Positions 32,758 to 39,774 of a stretch of 64,000 nucleotides of DNA are shown piece by piece. The notes under the pieces are model-generated. The model had not been told where the DNA came from, did no database searches, and was given only the letters and a program-made list of their open reading frames with translations. Source of the stretch: a bacterium. Lineage in GTDB: Bacteria; JAJVIF01. The stretch lies in the NCBI GenBank assembly GCA_022072165.1, contig JAJVIF010000001.1, forward strand, positions 585,353 through 649,352, in the 5' to 3' direction. The position numbers and the translations under genes are program-made. The first letter of the stretch is position 1. Each line of letters starts with the position of its first letter.

Positions 32758-33570
32758 CTATTCGCCGGTGAATGCCGCGTTCCGCTTTTCGATGAAGGCG
32801 GTCATGCCCTCTTTCATGTCATGGGTAGTCGCGAGGAGGCCGAAGAGCTGGGTCTCGTAGTTCAAGCCATCGGCGAGGGTCATGTCGAGCCCCCGGTTGA
32901 CCGCCTGAATCGCCATGGCGACCGCCACGGGACTGACCGCCTTCGCCTTGGGCGGATGGATCAGTTCCTTCGCACAATCGACAGCGCTCTGGCCCTCCGG
33001 GGCGATCTGATTGACCAGCCCGATCCGCAGGGCTTCGGCGGCATCAATCATCTTGCCGGTGCAGATCAACTCGAGTGCTCGCCCTTTGCCCACGATCCGG
33101 GCCAGGCGCTGGGTGCCGCCATATCCGGGAATGATACCGAGGGTGGTTTCCGGCAGTCCGAGCTTCGCAGCGGGCGAAGCTACCCGGCAATGACAGGCAA
33201 GGGCGAGTTCCAGGCCGCCGCCGAGGCAGAAGCCATTAATCGCAGCGACGGTCAGCTTCGGCATTTCCTCCAACATTCGGACAATTTTCTGGCCGTGCTG
33301 GGCATGTTTGGAGCCCCCGATCGGCGAGAGGACCGCGAGTTCGTTGATGTCCGCCCCTGCAATGAAGGCTTTCTCGCCGCTGCCGGTGATGATCAGCCCG
33401 TGCACCGCAGAATCCGCCGCGATGCCACTGAACGCGCACTCGAGTTCCGCCATGGTTTCGTTGTTGAGCGCATTCAGCTTGTCGGGACGATTCACCGTCA
33501 GAATCGCCAGATCCCCGTCCTGGACGAGCGAGATGTTCTGATAGGACTTTTCGGTGGCAGTGGTGGTCAT
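32758..33570 (-). CDS. Enoyl-CoA hydratase/isomerase family protein
   Basis: The 270-residue crotonase-fold product has the oxyanion-hole segments KAFIAGADINEL and NGFCLGGGLELALACH and the active-site segment LPETTLGIIPGYGGTQRL. Both catalytic glutamate positions of hydratases appear present (in GGGLELAL and LPET), so hydration of 2-enoyl-CoA is the likely reaction, in fatty acid oxidation or a related pathway. A strong AGGAGG ribosome site precedes the ATG. It is the first gene of a unit with mnmE and is divergent from the rimP operon. Confidence 0.85.
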   Translation of the reverse strand: MTTTATEKSYQNISLVQDGDLAILTVNRPDKLNALNNETMAELECAFSGIAADSAVHGLIITGSGEKAFIAGADINELAVLSPIGGSKHAQHGQKIVRMLEEMPKLTVAAINGFCLGGGLELALACHCRVASPAAKLGLPETTLGIIPGYGGTQRLARIVGKGRALELICTGKMIDAAEALRIGLVNQIAPEGQSAVDCAKELIHPPKAKAVSPVAVAMAIQAVNRGLDMTLADGLNYETQLFGLLATTHDMKEGMTAFIEKRNAAFTGE

Positions 33571-33646: not shown

Positions 33647-33675
33647 TTGAGGGGAGGCCGGGGGCGTGATATGCT
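33647..33675 (+). promoter_or_regulatory. Promoter of the rimP-nusA-infB operon
   Basis: TTGAGG (33647-33652), exactly 17 bases, then TATGCT (33670-33675). RNA would start near 33682, about 135 bases before the rimP ATG. An intrinsic terminator follows almost immediately. Confidence 0.7.
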
Positions 33676-33687
33676 CCGGGAGGTAGT

Positions 33688-33714
33688 CAGTGGGTCGCGG
33701 CCCGCTGTTTTTTT
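33688..33714 (+). terminator. Intrinsic terminator in the rimP-nusA leader (likely attenuator)
   Basis: CAGTGGG and CCCGCTG form a 7-pair stem (one T-G wobble) with a 6-base loop, followed directly by seven T residues (33708-33714). No plus-strand gene ends upstream; the nearest neighbour is the divergent hydratase, and the stem is oriented for plus-strand termination. It lies between the promoter and rimP, so it probably regulates the operon by premature termination. Confidence 0.65.
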
Positions 33715-33817
33715 GTGCTCGGTGTCGGTAATTCTCGACCCGGTACTGAAGAACAGTTGGGGCGCGCTGGTCTGACATGGGCGCTGGTCAGCCGAAAGCG
33801 TCCGGAAAGGGCCCGTC

Positions 33818-34330
33818 ATGCGGCCGGTCGATCACGAACAGCTCGAGCAGTACATCGACCAGTATCTGTTCGACCTGGGATATGAGTTGGTGGATTTTTC
33901 CATGGAGCCCATGGGACGTCACCTCCTTTTGTCGTGCTACATCGACCTGCCCAGCGGTACGGTGTCCATCAAAGACTGTCAGGTCGTGAACGACAAACTC
34001 CGGCTGGTACTGGAGACTGACCGGCTGGCGGGGATGGATTTTCGGCTGATTGTGTCGTCCCCCGGGCTCGACCGGGTGGTCAAGAAACCGGCCGATTTTC
34101 TCCGCTTTCAGGGACGGCGCATCAAAGTCTGGTTTCCGCCGAGCGAAGGGGCCCGCAAGGGACGTACTGCGGAAGGGACGCTGGAGCACTACAGTGAGGA
34201 TGGCACCATCCTGCTGCAACTGGACTCCGGCGAGAATCTGCAGTTCGCGCAGGCCGAAACCCGGCTGGTGCGGCTGGTGCCGCAGATCGACTTCTCGGCG
34301 GGCAAGGGATCCCGCCAGACAGGTACCTGA
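33818..34330 (+). CDS. rimP: Ribosome maturation factor RimP
   Basis: Needed for 30S subunit assembly. The 170-residue product has the N-terminal alpha/beta domain (GYELVDFSMEPMGRHLLL), the hallmark SSPGLDRVVKKPADF followed by RFQGRRIKVW, and a C-terminal SH3-like domain. GGAAAGGG lies upstream of the ATG. First gene of the rimP-nusA-ylxR-infB block, behind a promoter and probable attenuator. Confidence 0.93.
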   Translation: MRPVDHEQLEQYIDQYLFDLGYELVDFSMEPMGRHLLLSCYIDLPSGTVSIKDCQVVNDKLRLVLETDRLAGMDFRLIVSSPGLDRVVKKPADFLRFQGRRIKVWFPPSEGARKGRTAEGTLEHYSEDGTILLQLDSGENLQFAQAETRLVRLVPQIDFSAGKGSRQTGT

Positions 34331-34404: not shown

Positions 34405-36030
34405 ATGATCGAAAGCCTTCTGAACGCTGTAGGTGACATCACTTCCGAGAAGGGCGTGCCCAGGGAGATCATTTATGAAGCGCTGGAAGCGGCACTCGCT
34501 TCGGCGTGGAAGAAAGATCACGGCCGTGATGTCAACGTCCGCTTCCACATTCACCCCGATTCCCGGAAGATCACCGGGGATTATCTGCGGGTCGCGGTGG
34601 AAGAGGTCATGGACCCGGAGTCCGAAATCGACCTCGTGGAAGCCCGGGACATCCTGCCGGAAGCGCAGGTGGGGGATGAGGTGCCGATCCCGATTCCCAA
34701 TGACCAGATCAACTTTGATCCGAACACTTTCAGCCGGATCGCTTCTCAGTCCGCCAAGCAGGTCGTGATGCAGCGGATCAAGGAAGCAGAACGGGAAATG
34801 ATCTACAGCAAGTATGAGGGGCGTATCGGCGAACTGATCTCGGGCAAAGTCCGGCGGGTCGAAGGCGGACATGTGTACGTGGAACTGGAAGGCACCGAAG
34901 GGGTGATTCCTCCGCGCGAACAGTCGCCCAAGGACATTTACAAGCCGAAGGCTACGGTCCGGGCAGTCATTTCCGACCTGCGCAAGACCACCCGGGGTCC
35001 GGCTATCATCCTTTCCCGGGCGCATCCGGACTTTGTCCGGCGCCTCTTCGAACTCGAAGTCCCCGAAGTCTCTGAAGGGACCGTAGAGATCGTCAATGTG
35101 GCGCGGGAAGCGGGCAACCGGACCAAAATCTCGGTCTACTCCCATCGTCCAGATGTGGATGCGGTCGGAGCCTGTGTCGGCTCCAAGGGGGTCCGGGTCC
35201 AGGCTGTCGTGAACGAGCTCAAAGAGAACATCGACATCATCGACTGGGAAGAAGATCCGTTCTACTACATCGCCCGGGCGCTGTCGCCGGCCGAGGTTTA
35301 CTCCGTCGAAATCTTCGAGGAATCGCTCTCTGCCGAGGTCGTGGTTCCGGATGATCAGGTGTCGCTGGCGATTGGTCGTGGTGGGCAGAATGTCCGGCTG
35401 GCGGCCAAGCTCACCGGGTGGCACATCGACATCAAGAAGCAGTCCGACAAACTGGCGGCGGATGCCCTGAGCGCGACGCCGGAAACGGATGCGGCGATCA
35501 GCGCCTTCCTCGCGCAGGGACTCGACACGATCCAGATCCGCAAACCGGCCCTGGATGCCCTGGTGGCTGCAGGCTTCACCACCATCGCCGATGTCGCTCA
35601 GCAAGCTCCAGAGGCGCTGCTGGCTCTCTCCGGCTTTGGTGAGACCGCCCTCGAAGAGCTGCGTCTGTTCCTGTCTCGCAACGGGGTCACCCTCGGGGAA
35701 GCGGCTGCGGTCGCTCCGACGGCTGAGGAAGCGGTCCCACTCGAGCTGGATGCCATCCTGGCGCTCCAGGTATCGGACCTGCCCCTTTCCATCAATTCCC
35801 GGACTGCCCTCATCGATGGTGGCTTCGGCAGCATCGCAGACATGGTGGGGGTCCCGACCGCCACCCTGCTGGAGGTGCCGGGTTTCGGCCCCCATGATCT
35901 GGAAGCCTTCAAGGCGTACCTGCTGAGCCTGGGTGTGCTGTATGACACGGGCGATGAGGAAGAGACTGACACGGCGGTGGCGGACGAGAGTGCGGCGGTC
36001 GAAGCCGCAGACTCCGGAGAAGCCGAGTAA
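34405..36030 (+). CDS. nusA: Transcription elongation/termination factor NusA
   Basis: Binds RNA polymerase and controls pausing, termination and antitermination. The 541-residue product has the NusA N-terminal domain, an S1 domain (GELISGKVRRVEGGHVYVEL), two KH domains (VGACVGSKGVRVQAVVNEL; LAIGRGGQNVRLAAKLTGW), and two C-terminal helix-hairpin-helix repeats (about 365-420 and 440-490), ending in an acidic tail. The two acidic repeats resemble the proteobacterial extended form. A 74-base gap separates it from rimP. Confidence 0.95.
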   Translation: MIESLLNAVGDITSEKGVPREIIYEALEAALASAWKKDHGRDVNVRFHIHPDSRKITGDYLRVAVEEVMDPESEIDLVEARDILPEAQVGDEVPIPIPNDQINFDPNTFSRIASQSAKQVVMQRIKEAEREMIYSKYEGRIGELISGKVRRVEGGHVYVELEGTEGVIPPREQSPKDIYKPKATVRAVISDLRKTTRGPAIILSRAHPDFVRRLFELEVPEVSEGTVEIVNVAREAGNRTKISVYSHRPDVDAVGACVGSKGVRVQAVVNELKENIDIIDWEEDPFYYIARALSPAEVYSVEIFEESLSAEVVVPDDQVSLAIGRGGQNVRLAAKLTGWHIDIKKQSDKLAADALSATPETDAAISAFLAQGLDTIQIRKPALDALVAAGFTTIADVAQQAPEALLALSGFGETALEELRLFLSRNGVTLGEAAAVAPTAEEAVPLELDAILALQVSDLPLSINSRTALIDGGFGSIADMVGVPTATLLEVPGFGPHDLEAFKAYLLSLGVLYDTGDEEETDTAVADESAAVEAADSGEAE

Positions 36031-36032
36031 CG

Positions 36033-36410
36033 GTGGGGAAGCGTCCGGCGCCGGAAGTGCCGCCGGACTACCGGGGGCCCGTGCGGAGTTGTTTAAGCTG
36101 CCGTCGACGGCTGCCGCAGGCGGCCCTGCTCCGACTGACATATCACCCAAGTCGCGGTATACTGCCTGAGCTTACGGGACGGCGCCGGCCGGGCCGGGGG
36201 GCGTATTTATGCGCCAATCCGGCGTGCCATGCGCGTGCGCGGCAAAAAGGGTTGCTGGCACGCGCTTTGCGGTGTCCGGTCCCGGGAGCGATCTGGGAGA
36301 CGCTGGCACCTGCGCTGGCCCTGTGGGGACAGTCGGCAGGCAAGCTGACGGATATCCCAGTCCTACCCGGCCAGGTCGCGTACCCGGTCTGTCGTGAGGA
36401 GACTACATGA
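36033..36410 (+). CDS. ylxR: YlxR-family (DUF448) RNA-binding protein
   Basis: A small basic protein (125 residues) found between nusA and infB in many bacteria. The family pattern is clear: RSCLSCRRRLPQAALLRL, GRGAYLCANPACHARA and a run of basic residues with AL repeats. It starts with GTG two bases after the nusA stop, with GGAGA in the nusA 3' end as a possible ribosome site. The usual neighbour ylxQ (L7Ae-like) is absent between this gene and infB. Confidence 0.85.
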   Translation: MGKRPAPEVPPDYRGPVRSCLSCRRRLPQAALLRLTYHPSRGILPELTGRRRPGRGAYLCANPACHARARQKGLLARALRCPVPGAIWETLAPALALWGQSAGKLTDIPVLPGQVAYPVCREETT

Positions 36411-36471: not shown

Positions 36472-39400
36472 TTGCGCGTAAACGAGCTGGCAAAAGAGCT
36501 GGGAGTGCCTTCGGGCCAGGTCCTGGCAGCTGCCCAGAATCTGGGGATGGGGCTGACCCATCACTCCAACAGTCTCACGGATGAGCAAACTGCTGCGCTC
36601 AGACGTCAGGTCGCACCCGGCAAACCCGGTGATTCCGCTGCAGCTCCCTCCGCGAGCCCGTCTGCCCCGTCGACGGCTCCCCCACCGGCCCCTCCGGGCG
36701 CTGCCGCTCCAGCAGCAACGAAACCAGCGGTGGTGCTGAAGCCGGCTAGCACCCCTGGGCAAAAGCCTGCGGTTGTCCTGCGACCCGCCTCGGCCCCCGG
36801 TGCAGCACCGACTGCCAAACCAGCAGCTCCCACTCCCAAGCCCGCGACTCCCGCGCCAACGCTTCAGCGTCCTCCCATGGGGACCGGACCTTCAGCGAAG
36901 CCAGTTTCGCCGGGAACTGGACCCACCAGCGCGCAGATTGCCGAAGAAAAGCAACGACGGATCCTGAATCTCCAGAAATCTGCTCCCGCTGAGCGTCCGG
37001 CGGCAGCACCGACGGCTCCCCCCAGCGGTCCCACGCTCAGTCGTCCGCGTCCGCCTGCTCCCAGCGGACGGCCTTCAGGACCAGGCGCTCCCCGTCCCTC
37101 TACACCACCCGCTTCCCGCCAGCGGCCTCCGCGACCCGGCACACCCGGCGAGCCTGGTGGTCCGCGCTTCATGATTCCGGGTCCCACGCCTCGCGGATAT
37201 GTTGCTCCGCCGACCGCCGAGCAGGGCGGTCCCAACGGGGCCGGGCCAGACATCGCTCCTCCGATAGCGACCGATGCTCCCGTGACCACAGCAGAAACGG
37301 AAGTCACAGCCGCTCCTGCGAGCGCGATGACGACACCGTCGGCAGAAACAGCAACTCCCGCCACTGAATCAACCTCTGTAGCACCATCGCAGGGACCTCC
37401 GATGCGCCAGGATCGTCCTGGAGGACGACCTGACGATGGTCGCCGTGGCCCTGGTCCGTCTGGAGATCGTGGTCCTCGCCGGGATACCCGTCAGGGGCCT
37501 GGCAGCGGTCCGCGTCCCGGACCCGGGGGCGGTCCAGGTGGCCAGGGTCCCCGTGGCGGTGACCTCAACATGGCGGCCCTGGGGCAGGGATTCAGAACGG
37601 ATCTCGCCAATCAGCGTCGCGAAGGGGGCGGCGGTCCGCGAGGTGATCGCGGACCGGGTGGTCCACGCCCGGGCGGCGGTCCGGGTGGACCTGGCGGTCC
37701 CCCCCGCAGCACCGGTGCTCCGCCGCCATTGGCGCGGGGAGGCGGTCAGCCCATGACTCCTTCCGGTCCCCCTCCTCCGGGCGTTGTTCCGGGTGGTGGT
37801 GGAAGGGGTCCGAATCAGGGCAAAAAGCTCATCAGTGGGGAATCCCGACGTCCCCCCAAGGCGCGCGGTGGTGGACCCGGTGGTAAGACCGCAGGGCGAC
37901 GCACCGGCGGGCCGCCTCCGACGCTGCATAGCTCCACCGAGTTTCGCCATGTGAAAGACCGACGTCGGCGCGGTGGACGACAGGTGGAGGAGTCCCGCGT
38001 TGAGGTCCGCCGCAACGTGTCGATTCCGGAGTACATCACAATCAAGGACCTCTCCGCCCAGACTGGTGTGAAGAGTTCCGAGATCATCAAGTACCTCTTC
38101 CGGGAACTCAGCATCATGGCCACGATCAACCATCCGGTTGATCAGGAAACCGCGGCACTCATCTGTGAGCACCTCGGGATCGAGTACACACTCGCCAAGG
38201 AAGAGGACGCGGAGAGCACGGTCGAGGCCTGGATCCTCGAAGAGGACACCGAAGAGAGCCTGGAGACCCGCCCGCCTGTGGTGACGGTCATGGGCCATGT
38301 CGACCACGGAAAGACGAAGCTGCTCGACGCGATTCGCTCGACCAATGTGGTGGCCGGCGAGTCGGGTGGCATTACCCAGCACATTGGGGCGTATCGCGCC
38401 TTCCTGAATGGGCGTCCCCTCACCTTCCTCGATACGCCGGGGCACCAAGCGTTTACCGCCATGCGGGCTCGTGGCGCGAAAGTGACCGACATTGCGGTGC
38501 TTGTGGTAGCGGCGGATGACGGAGTCATGCCGCAGACGAAAGAAGCCATCGACCACGCGAAAGCGGCGGGGGTGGAGATCATCGTCGCGCTCAACAAGAT
38601 GGACAAGCAGGATGCGAATCCTGATCGGGTCAAGACCGAACTGGCCAACGAAGGCCTCCAGCCATCGGAGTGGGGTGGCTCGACCACGGTGGTGCCGGTC
38701 TCTGCACTGAAGCAGGAAGGCATCGCCGAATTGCTGGAGATGATCCTGCTCCAGTCGGAAGTGATGGACCTCAAGGCGAATCCGAATCGTCGGGCAGTCG
38801 GGACCATCATCGAAGCACGGCTGGATAAAGGTCGCGGCCCCGTCGCCACGGCTCTCATCGAGAAGGGAACCCTGCACCAGGGCGACTTCGTGGTGATTGG
38901 CGCCAGCTTCGGCCGCATCCGGGCGATGCAGGACGAGAACGGGCAGCCGCTGGAATCGGCCGGCCCGTCCTGCCCGGTGGAGATTTCCGGGCTCTCCGAC
39001 GTGCCTCAGGCGGGCGATAAGCTCATCGAGGTCGAAGACGAAAAGACTGCCCGGGCGATCTACGAAGAGCGCATCAGCGCGTTCCGCCAGGCTCGCCTCA
39101 AAGCGGTCAACAAGATCTCCCTGGAAGACTTCCACAAGCGCCTGACCGAAGGCGAAGTGAAAGAACTCAACATCATCCTCAAGGCTGATGTCCAGGGATC
39201 CATCGAAGCGCTGGTCCACGCCCTGACACAGCTCAACACCGAGGAAGTCAAGGTCAACGTGGTCTCCAAGCAGGTCGGCAACGTCAAGGACAGCGATCTG
39301 ATGCTGGCCCTGGCCTCCAAGTCGATCGTCCTGGGCTTTAAGGTCCAGGCGAGCCCCGAGATCATGAAGCAGGCGCAGCACGAAGGGATCGATGTCCGGC

Positions 39401-39774
39401 TCTACGACATCATCTACGATGCGGTCGACGACGTGAAGAAGGCGCTGGCGGGTCTGCTCAAGCCGACCATCAGCGAGAAAATCACGGGTCTGGCGACTGT
39501 CCGGGCGATCTTCAAAGTCGCCAAGGGCACCACGATCGGTGGCTGCTACATCGACTCTGGCGAGCTGATCCGGAACAAGAAGATTCGCGTGAAGCGTGGC
39601 GGCGAGGTCATCTTCGAGGGTGTCCTCAACGGCCTCAAGCGCTTCAAGGAAGATGCGCGTAAGGTCGATGCCGGCTATGAGTGCGGTATCGAGATCGACG
39701 GCATCACGACCCTGGCGGAAGGCGACATCATCGAACAGTTCGAGATCGAGGAAATCGCCCGCACGCTGGACTAG
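36472..39774 (+). CDS. infB: Translation initiation factor IF-2
   Basis: Brings initiator tRNA to the 30S subunit and promotes subunit joining. The 1100-residue product starts with an IF2 N-terminal helical module (VNELAKELGVPSGQVLAAA), then about 470 residues of low-complexity P/A/G/R sequence, a second IF2_N module (TIKDLSAQTGVKSSEIIKYL), and the G domain with GHVDHGKT, GGITQHIGAY, DTPGHQAF and NKMDKQ, then domains II-IV. The start codon is TTG at 36472 with AGGAG nine bases upstream. The glycine/arginine-rich stretch (codons for about 37400-37900) is unusually long. Confidence 0.95.
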   Translation: MRVNELAKELGVPSGQVLAAAQNLGMGLTHHSNSLTDEQTAALRRQVAPGKPGDSAAAPSASPSAPSTAPPPAPPGAAAPAATKPAVVLKPASTPGQKPAVVLRPASAPGAAPTAKPAAPTPKPATPAPTLQRPPMGTGPSAKPVSPGTGPTSAQIAEEKQRRILNLQKSAPAERPAAAPTAPPSGPTLSRPRPPAPSGRPSGPGAPRPSTPPASRQRPPRPGTPGEPGGPRFMIPGPTPRGYVAPPTAEQGGPNGAGPDIAPPIATDAPVTTAETEVTAAPASAMTTPSAETATPATESTSVAPSQGPPMRQDRPGGRPDDGRRGPGPSGDRGPRRDTRQGPGSGPRPGPGGGPGGQGPRGGDLNMAALGQGFRTDLANQRREGGGGPRGDRGPGGPRPGGGPGGPGGPPRSTGAPPPLARGGGQPMTPSGPPPPGVVPGGGGRGPNQGKKLISGESRRPPKARGGGPGGKTAGRRTGGPPPTLHSSTEFRHVKDRRRRGGRQVEESRVEVRRNVSIPEYITIKDLSAQTGVKSSEIIKYLFRELSIMATINHPVDQETAALICEHLGIEYTLAKEEDAESTVEAWILEEDTEESLETRPPVVTVMGHVDHGKTKLLDAIRSTNVVAGESGGITQHIGAYRAFLNGRPLTFLDTPGHQAFTAMRARGAKVTDIAVLVVAADDGVMPQTKEAIDHAKAAGVEIIVALNKMDKQDANPDRVKTELANEGLQPSEWGGSTTVVPVSALKQEGIAELLEMILLQSEVMDLKANPNRRAVGTIIEARLDKGRGPVATALIEKGTLHQGDFVVIGASFGRIRAMQDENGQPLESAGPSCPVEISGLSDVPQAGDKLIEVEDEKTARAIYEERISAFRQARLKAVNKISLEDFHKRLTEGEVKELNIILKADVQGSIEALVHALTQLNTEEVKVNVVSKQVGNVKDSDLMLALASKSIVLGFKVQASPEIMKQAQHEGIDVRLYDIIYDAVDDVKKALAGLLKPTISEKITGLATVRAIFKVAKGTTIGGCYIDSGELIRNKKIRVKRGGEVIFEGVLNGLKRFKEDARKVDAGYECGIEIDGITTLAEGDIIEQFEIEEIARTLD

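Follow-up and report, generated by a model that had tools for sequence, protein, structure and literature searches.

The locus in front of the rimP-nusA-ylxR-infB genes of the JAJVIF01 bacterium raises the question of whether nusA, which encodes a termination factor, is controlled by its own product through premature termination in the operon leader. Such autogenous control had been put forward in the initial annotation of the window (the whole 64,000-nt stretch of DNA that was analysed), where a promoter is followed within about 15 bases of the expected RNA start by a GC-rich stem and seven T residues. The reading preferred here, with a probability of about 0.83, is that a promoter-proximal rimP-leader attenuator sensing NusA governs the operon (Table 1).

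Table 1. Coordinates of the features at the rimP-nusA locus, numbered along the window
Feature	Position	Strand	Evidence or description
Enoyl-CoA hydratase gene, divergent upstream neighbour, not controlled	32758-33570	-	Pfam ECH_1, E=1.3e-58
Candidate promoter TTGAGG-17-TATGCT with TG extension	33647-33675	+	Sequence; no other site in the gap reaches 7/12
Predicted attenuated RNA, ~33 nt	33682-33714	+	Start 7 nt past the -10 box, to the end of the T tract
91-nt hairpin, read-through RNA only	33686-33776	+	Right arm at ~33748-33776 takes up the complete terminator together with its U-tract
rimP-leader terminator stem (AGUGGG..CCCGCU)	33688-33707	+	Folds at -12.5 kcal/mol
T7 tract, intrinsic terminator	33708-33714	+	No longer T-run in the 464-kb genome sample
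rimP, first gene of the proposed controlled operon	33818-34330	+	Pfam RimP_N, E=1.4e-12
nusA, proposed autoregulator	34405-36030	+	Pfam NusA_N, S1, KH_5, HHH_5
ylxR	36033-36410	+	Pfam YlxR, E=2.4e-19
infB (IF-2)	36472-39774	+	Pfam IF-2, IF2_N, GTP_EFTU

The terminator hairpin and the rimP-leader family

The candidate promoter, the stem and the seven T residues all lie in the 247-nt intergenic gap between the hydratase gene and rimP. The claim that no plus-strand gene ends upstream of the terminator holds, the upstream gene being the enoyl-CoA hydratase gene on the minus strand, and the plus-strand ORF that overlaps it has no Pfam match. The GC-rich stem and the T residues that follow it were likewise confirmed in the sequence: the stem is made up of CAGTGGGT/CGCG/GCCCGCTG, with eight pairs, five of them G-C, and a 4-nt loop.

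The frequency of such elements was taken from a 464-kb sample of the genome (62.5% GC), consisting of the window and 20 stretches of 20 kb. Runs of seven T residues occur 13 times on both strands of this sample and longer runs do not occur in it, while five or more T residues after a stem of at least seven pairs were found at 10 sites, which corresponds to ~0.003 sites expected by chance on one strand of the 247-nt gap. Because combinations of T-run and stem are so rare in the sample, the terminator is not expected in the gap by chance. A functionless coincidence of hairpin and T tract could appeal to a generic terminator scan, whose two terminator-like sites compare with a shuffle expectation of 1.9, but it is hardly credible for a T7 tract with an eight-pair stem, which belongs to the rarest sites of this kind in the 464 kb and presents the family sequence at the family position, conserved in three same-class genomes. 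As a separate observation, the rarity of intrinsic-terminator-like sites in this genome (10 in 464 kb) suggests that other ways of termination dominate in it.

The site is a new example of the known rimP-leader transcription attenuator (Naville & Gautheret 2010, PMC2965389), and through it a known autoregulatory attenuator is recorded in a bacterial class that has been little sampled. The rimP-leader was the commonest predicted transcription attenuator in that survey, described as a GGGc..gCCC terminator stem followed by a U-stretch, without an antiterminator, 4-130 nt before rimP (PMC2965389). In the window the hairpin occupies the 5' leader of the rimP-nusA-infB operon, and ~103 nt separate the T tract from the start of rimP, inside the published range. 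The G-rich/C-rich stem follows the form GGGy..rCCC, with GGGT/GCCC standing for GGGc(...)gCCC and an inner U-G replacing c-g, a variant also seen in relatives; the U-stretch comes straight after the stem, and no antiterminator or riboswitch-like element was found, ~6 nt preceding the stem in the predicted RNA. The window core AGTGGGTCGCGGCCCGCT followed by T7 fits the published description. It differs from the described family in the inner U-G pair, in a stem U-G for U-A, in a basal C-G and in a strong read-through hairpin that is undescribed for that family.

An Rfam search of the locus returned no match at the gathering cut-off. The Rfam model RF01770 rimP is alike in gene context and unlike in being longer (102 positions); it did not reach its gathering cut-off here, gave no match in the bacterium's own genome or in 19 relatives, and matches only E. 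coli among 14 control genomes. Two covariance models were built without the window, R1 with its stem one column out of register and R2 with the correct pairing, and both rank the site first in the whole 3.26-Mb genome. The E-values for the site (0.11-0.20) are modest because the motif is short, and the case leans on the orthologous position that the site occupies as well. Among genomes with a best-match E of at most 0.01 and a known nusA position, searched with R1, 24 of 28 have that best whole-genome match upstream of nusA, at a distance of no more than 1 kb and in the orientation of the gene. The runner-up of R2 in the genome (L166, about 1504-1537; G000:C1:1241395-1241434) scores nearly as well and was rejected as a second attenuator, being an ordinary symmetrical terminator between two convergent genes.

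The survey of other genomes covered 107 nusA loci, 75 with rimP upstream of nusA and 32 without, and used the strict pattern AGTGGG-N2-10-CCC(A/G)C(T/A) with at least five T in the next 10 bases. This motif was found at 39 of the 75 loci with rimP, both counts including the window's own locus, and at 19 of the 32 without it, and is absent from about half of the surveyed loci. These counts are descriptive, as the pattern was fixed after some leaders had been viewed, and the control is given by the sequence elsewhere, where 648 kb outside rimP/nusA leaders yielded no match. The initial annotation had made its case depend on conservation of the stem in relatives, and the stem was found in three of three same-class relatives and in many phyla, only before rimP or nusA. 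The same-class forms are AGTGGG..CCCACT, AGTGGG..CCCGCT and AGCGGG..CCCGCT, in which one pair runs U-A, U-G, C-G. A direct DNA search of 97 genomes gave no match beyond the own genome, and the same-class comparison therefore uses three genomes that were located by way of NusA.

The pairing itself is borne out by covariation. Across 30 aligned cores, 95.9% of the stem cells pair, a share that drops to 91.0% on shuffling and does not exceed 61% when the register is slid; none of the 500 shuffles and no slid register reaches the covariation score of the true alignment. The window contributes a C-G base pair where other cores have G-C, A-U or G-U. Spirochaete rimP leaders (L061-L063, L080, L084, L085, L087, L108) carry a similar, different hairpin with a U-tract, GGGCCGUUC..GACCCUUUU or AAAGGGUC..GGCCCUUU, which is perhaps a divergent form of the rimP-leader attenuator.

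Promoter spacing and the predicted short RNA

The promoter boxes that had been read ahead of the stem are present as described, with TTGAGG at 33647-33652, a 17-nt spacer and TATGCT at 33670-33675, preceded by TG as in an extended -10 element. The promoter has 8 of 12 consensus bases and falls below the scanner cut-off of 9. In 247 nt, chance alone would supply ~0.09 matches of 8/12, and shuffled DNA contains sites of this quality as often as the genome does (~0.35 per kb per strand, or 0.027 when TG is required); judged from its own letters, the window promoter is only suggestive. Transcription in the JAJVIF01 bacterium probably starts at this promoter and terminates at the T tract, and a start near 33682 would give a terminated RNA of ~33 nt, in agreement with the length of about 33 bases first proposed. 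The stem begins just ~6 nt past the predicted start, so that termination would be required almost immediately after promoter escape, which counts against the proposal.

The promoter spacing was considered across the family, in 54 non-redundant leaders with the window left out and in 100 shuffles. Of the 54 leaders, 32 have their best promoter-like site ending 10-40 nt upstream of the motif, compared with 8.3 in shuffles (maximum 14), and a promoter score of at least 9 at this distance was obtained for 29 leaders, compared with 2.0 in shuffles. Nitrospira leaders place the promoter 12 nt from the motif, against 13 nt in the window. For the rimP-nusA-infB genes of S. agalactiae (gbs0413-0418), RNA ends 31 nt past the mapped start at a predicted intrinsic terminator (PMC4448216), close to the ~33 nt predicted in the window, although the organism is distant and its RNA was mapped rather than predicted. 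Because promoters cluster 10-40 nt upstream across leaders and because of the 31-nt RNA of S. agalactiae, a very short attenuated RNA is the usual design. The position of promoters 10-40 nt upstream in most lineages was not found stated as a family-wide point in the literature examined.

The same observations bear on the view that the element is a constitutive, unregulated partial terminator, which would lower operon output or block antisense transcription from the mnmE/hydratase side without sensing NusA. Such a terminator would stop plus-strand antisense transcripts too and is in keeping with the lack of an antiterminator structure ahead of the stem, but it is unlikely here, given that an insulator would need neither the conservation of the stem sequence from phylum to phylum nor its restriction to rimP/nusA leaders, and that promoters cluster just upstream of the motif.

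NusA and other candidates for the sensed product

There are 19 loci at which the motif, with no rimP ahead of it, lies 49-135 nt upstream of nusA; those listed are L033, L039, L051, L053, L055, L057, L059, L060, L065, L066, L068, L079, L082, L083, L086, L089 and L103. The genes upstream in those rimP-less examples that were read, identified from translations, are unrelated, being proS-like in several and divergent in Dehalococcoidia. With rimP missing, the motif still accompanies nusA, and this speaks for NusA as the sensor rather than RimP, the second candidate that PMC2965389 raises. That the motif lies directly before nusA where rimP is absent was not found stated in the literature examined. 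The lineages in which this arrangement was seen are Dehalococcoidia, other Chloroflexi and Bacterium HR16.

Homologous systems point to the same factor. PMC12288461, citing Mondal et al. 2016, describes NusA as stimulating intrinsic termination and B. subtilis NusA as autoregulating through termination in its own leader. The window would resemble this system in NusA-stimulated intrinsic termination in the leader of the operon that encodes NusA, the role of NusA in the window being a proposed one, and differs from it in that the B. subtilis leader is about 180 nt long (PMC2965389). NusA feedback on the rimP-nusA-infB leader was also proposed by the authors of the S. agalactiae study (PMC4448216). 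By analogy with these systems, and with the motif staying with nusA, NusA is probably the factor that acts here, and the autogenous control of nusA by premature termination first suggested from the sequence is supported to that extent.

Feedback through RimP, IF-2 or an RNA-binding factor of another kind that recognises the AGUGGG stem would give a role to the high stem conservation, which suggests a protein that reads sequence (argued in PMC2965389). It is nevertheless very unlikely, with no rimP between the motif and nusA or immediately upstream at the 19 loci, and with NusA itself autoregulating in B. subtilis according to the paper cited above.

In the NusA-sensing mechanism, RNA polymerase would start at ~33682 and, no more than ~33 nt on, have made the short hairpin with its U-tract. 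Plentiful NusA would load on the early elongation complex and stabilise the pause and the hairpin, whereupon transcription would stop; when NusA is scarce, the polymerase would read through into rimP-nusA-ylxR-infB. Over so short a distance, the outcome would depend on how quickly the polymerase acquires NusA after leaving the promoter. Should the short spacing prove necessary, the timing of this step becomes directly testable.

Pairing in the read-through RNA

Once the polymerase has passed ~33755, downstream RNA can pair with the U-tract at first and eventually with all of the terminator, which gives the 91-nt hairpin (33686-33776), an alternative fold that draws on downstream sequence only. 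When the terminator was held fixed and the downstream sequence shuffled, none of 500 sequences folded as well (-68.0 kcal/mol vs -51.7, sd 3.4). A weaker read-through pairing was found in one same-class relative (p 0.046), and the pairing is not general, with a mean z of -0.04 over 37 other leaders. An antiterminator formed by the downstream sequence was ruled out as the regulator, being transcribed after the terminator and pairing in a way that is not general among leaders.

A joint reading of these results is offered tentatively. Across bacteria, the motif may be a nusA-specific kinetic sensor, reached within ~30-50 nt of RNA from the promoter, in which NusA must load before the polymerase passes and which follows nusA on operon rearrangement; in the present bacterium, the read-through RNA would refold into the 91-nt hairpin, remove the terminator and perhaps set the processing or stability of the operon message. 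The hairpin could be a processing or stability element; in E. coli, the leader of the rimP-nusA operon is cleaved by RNase III (PMC6511841).
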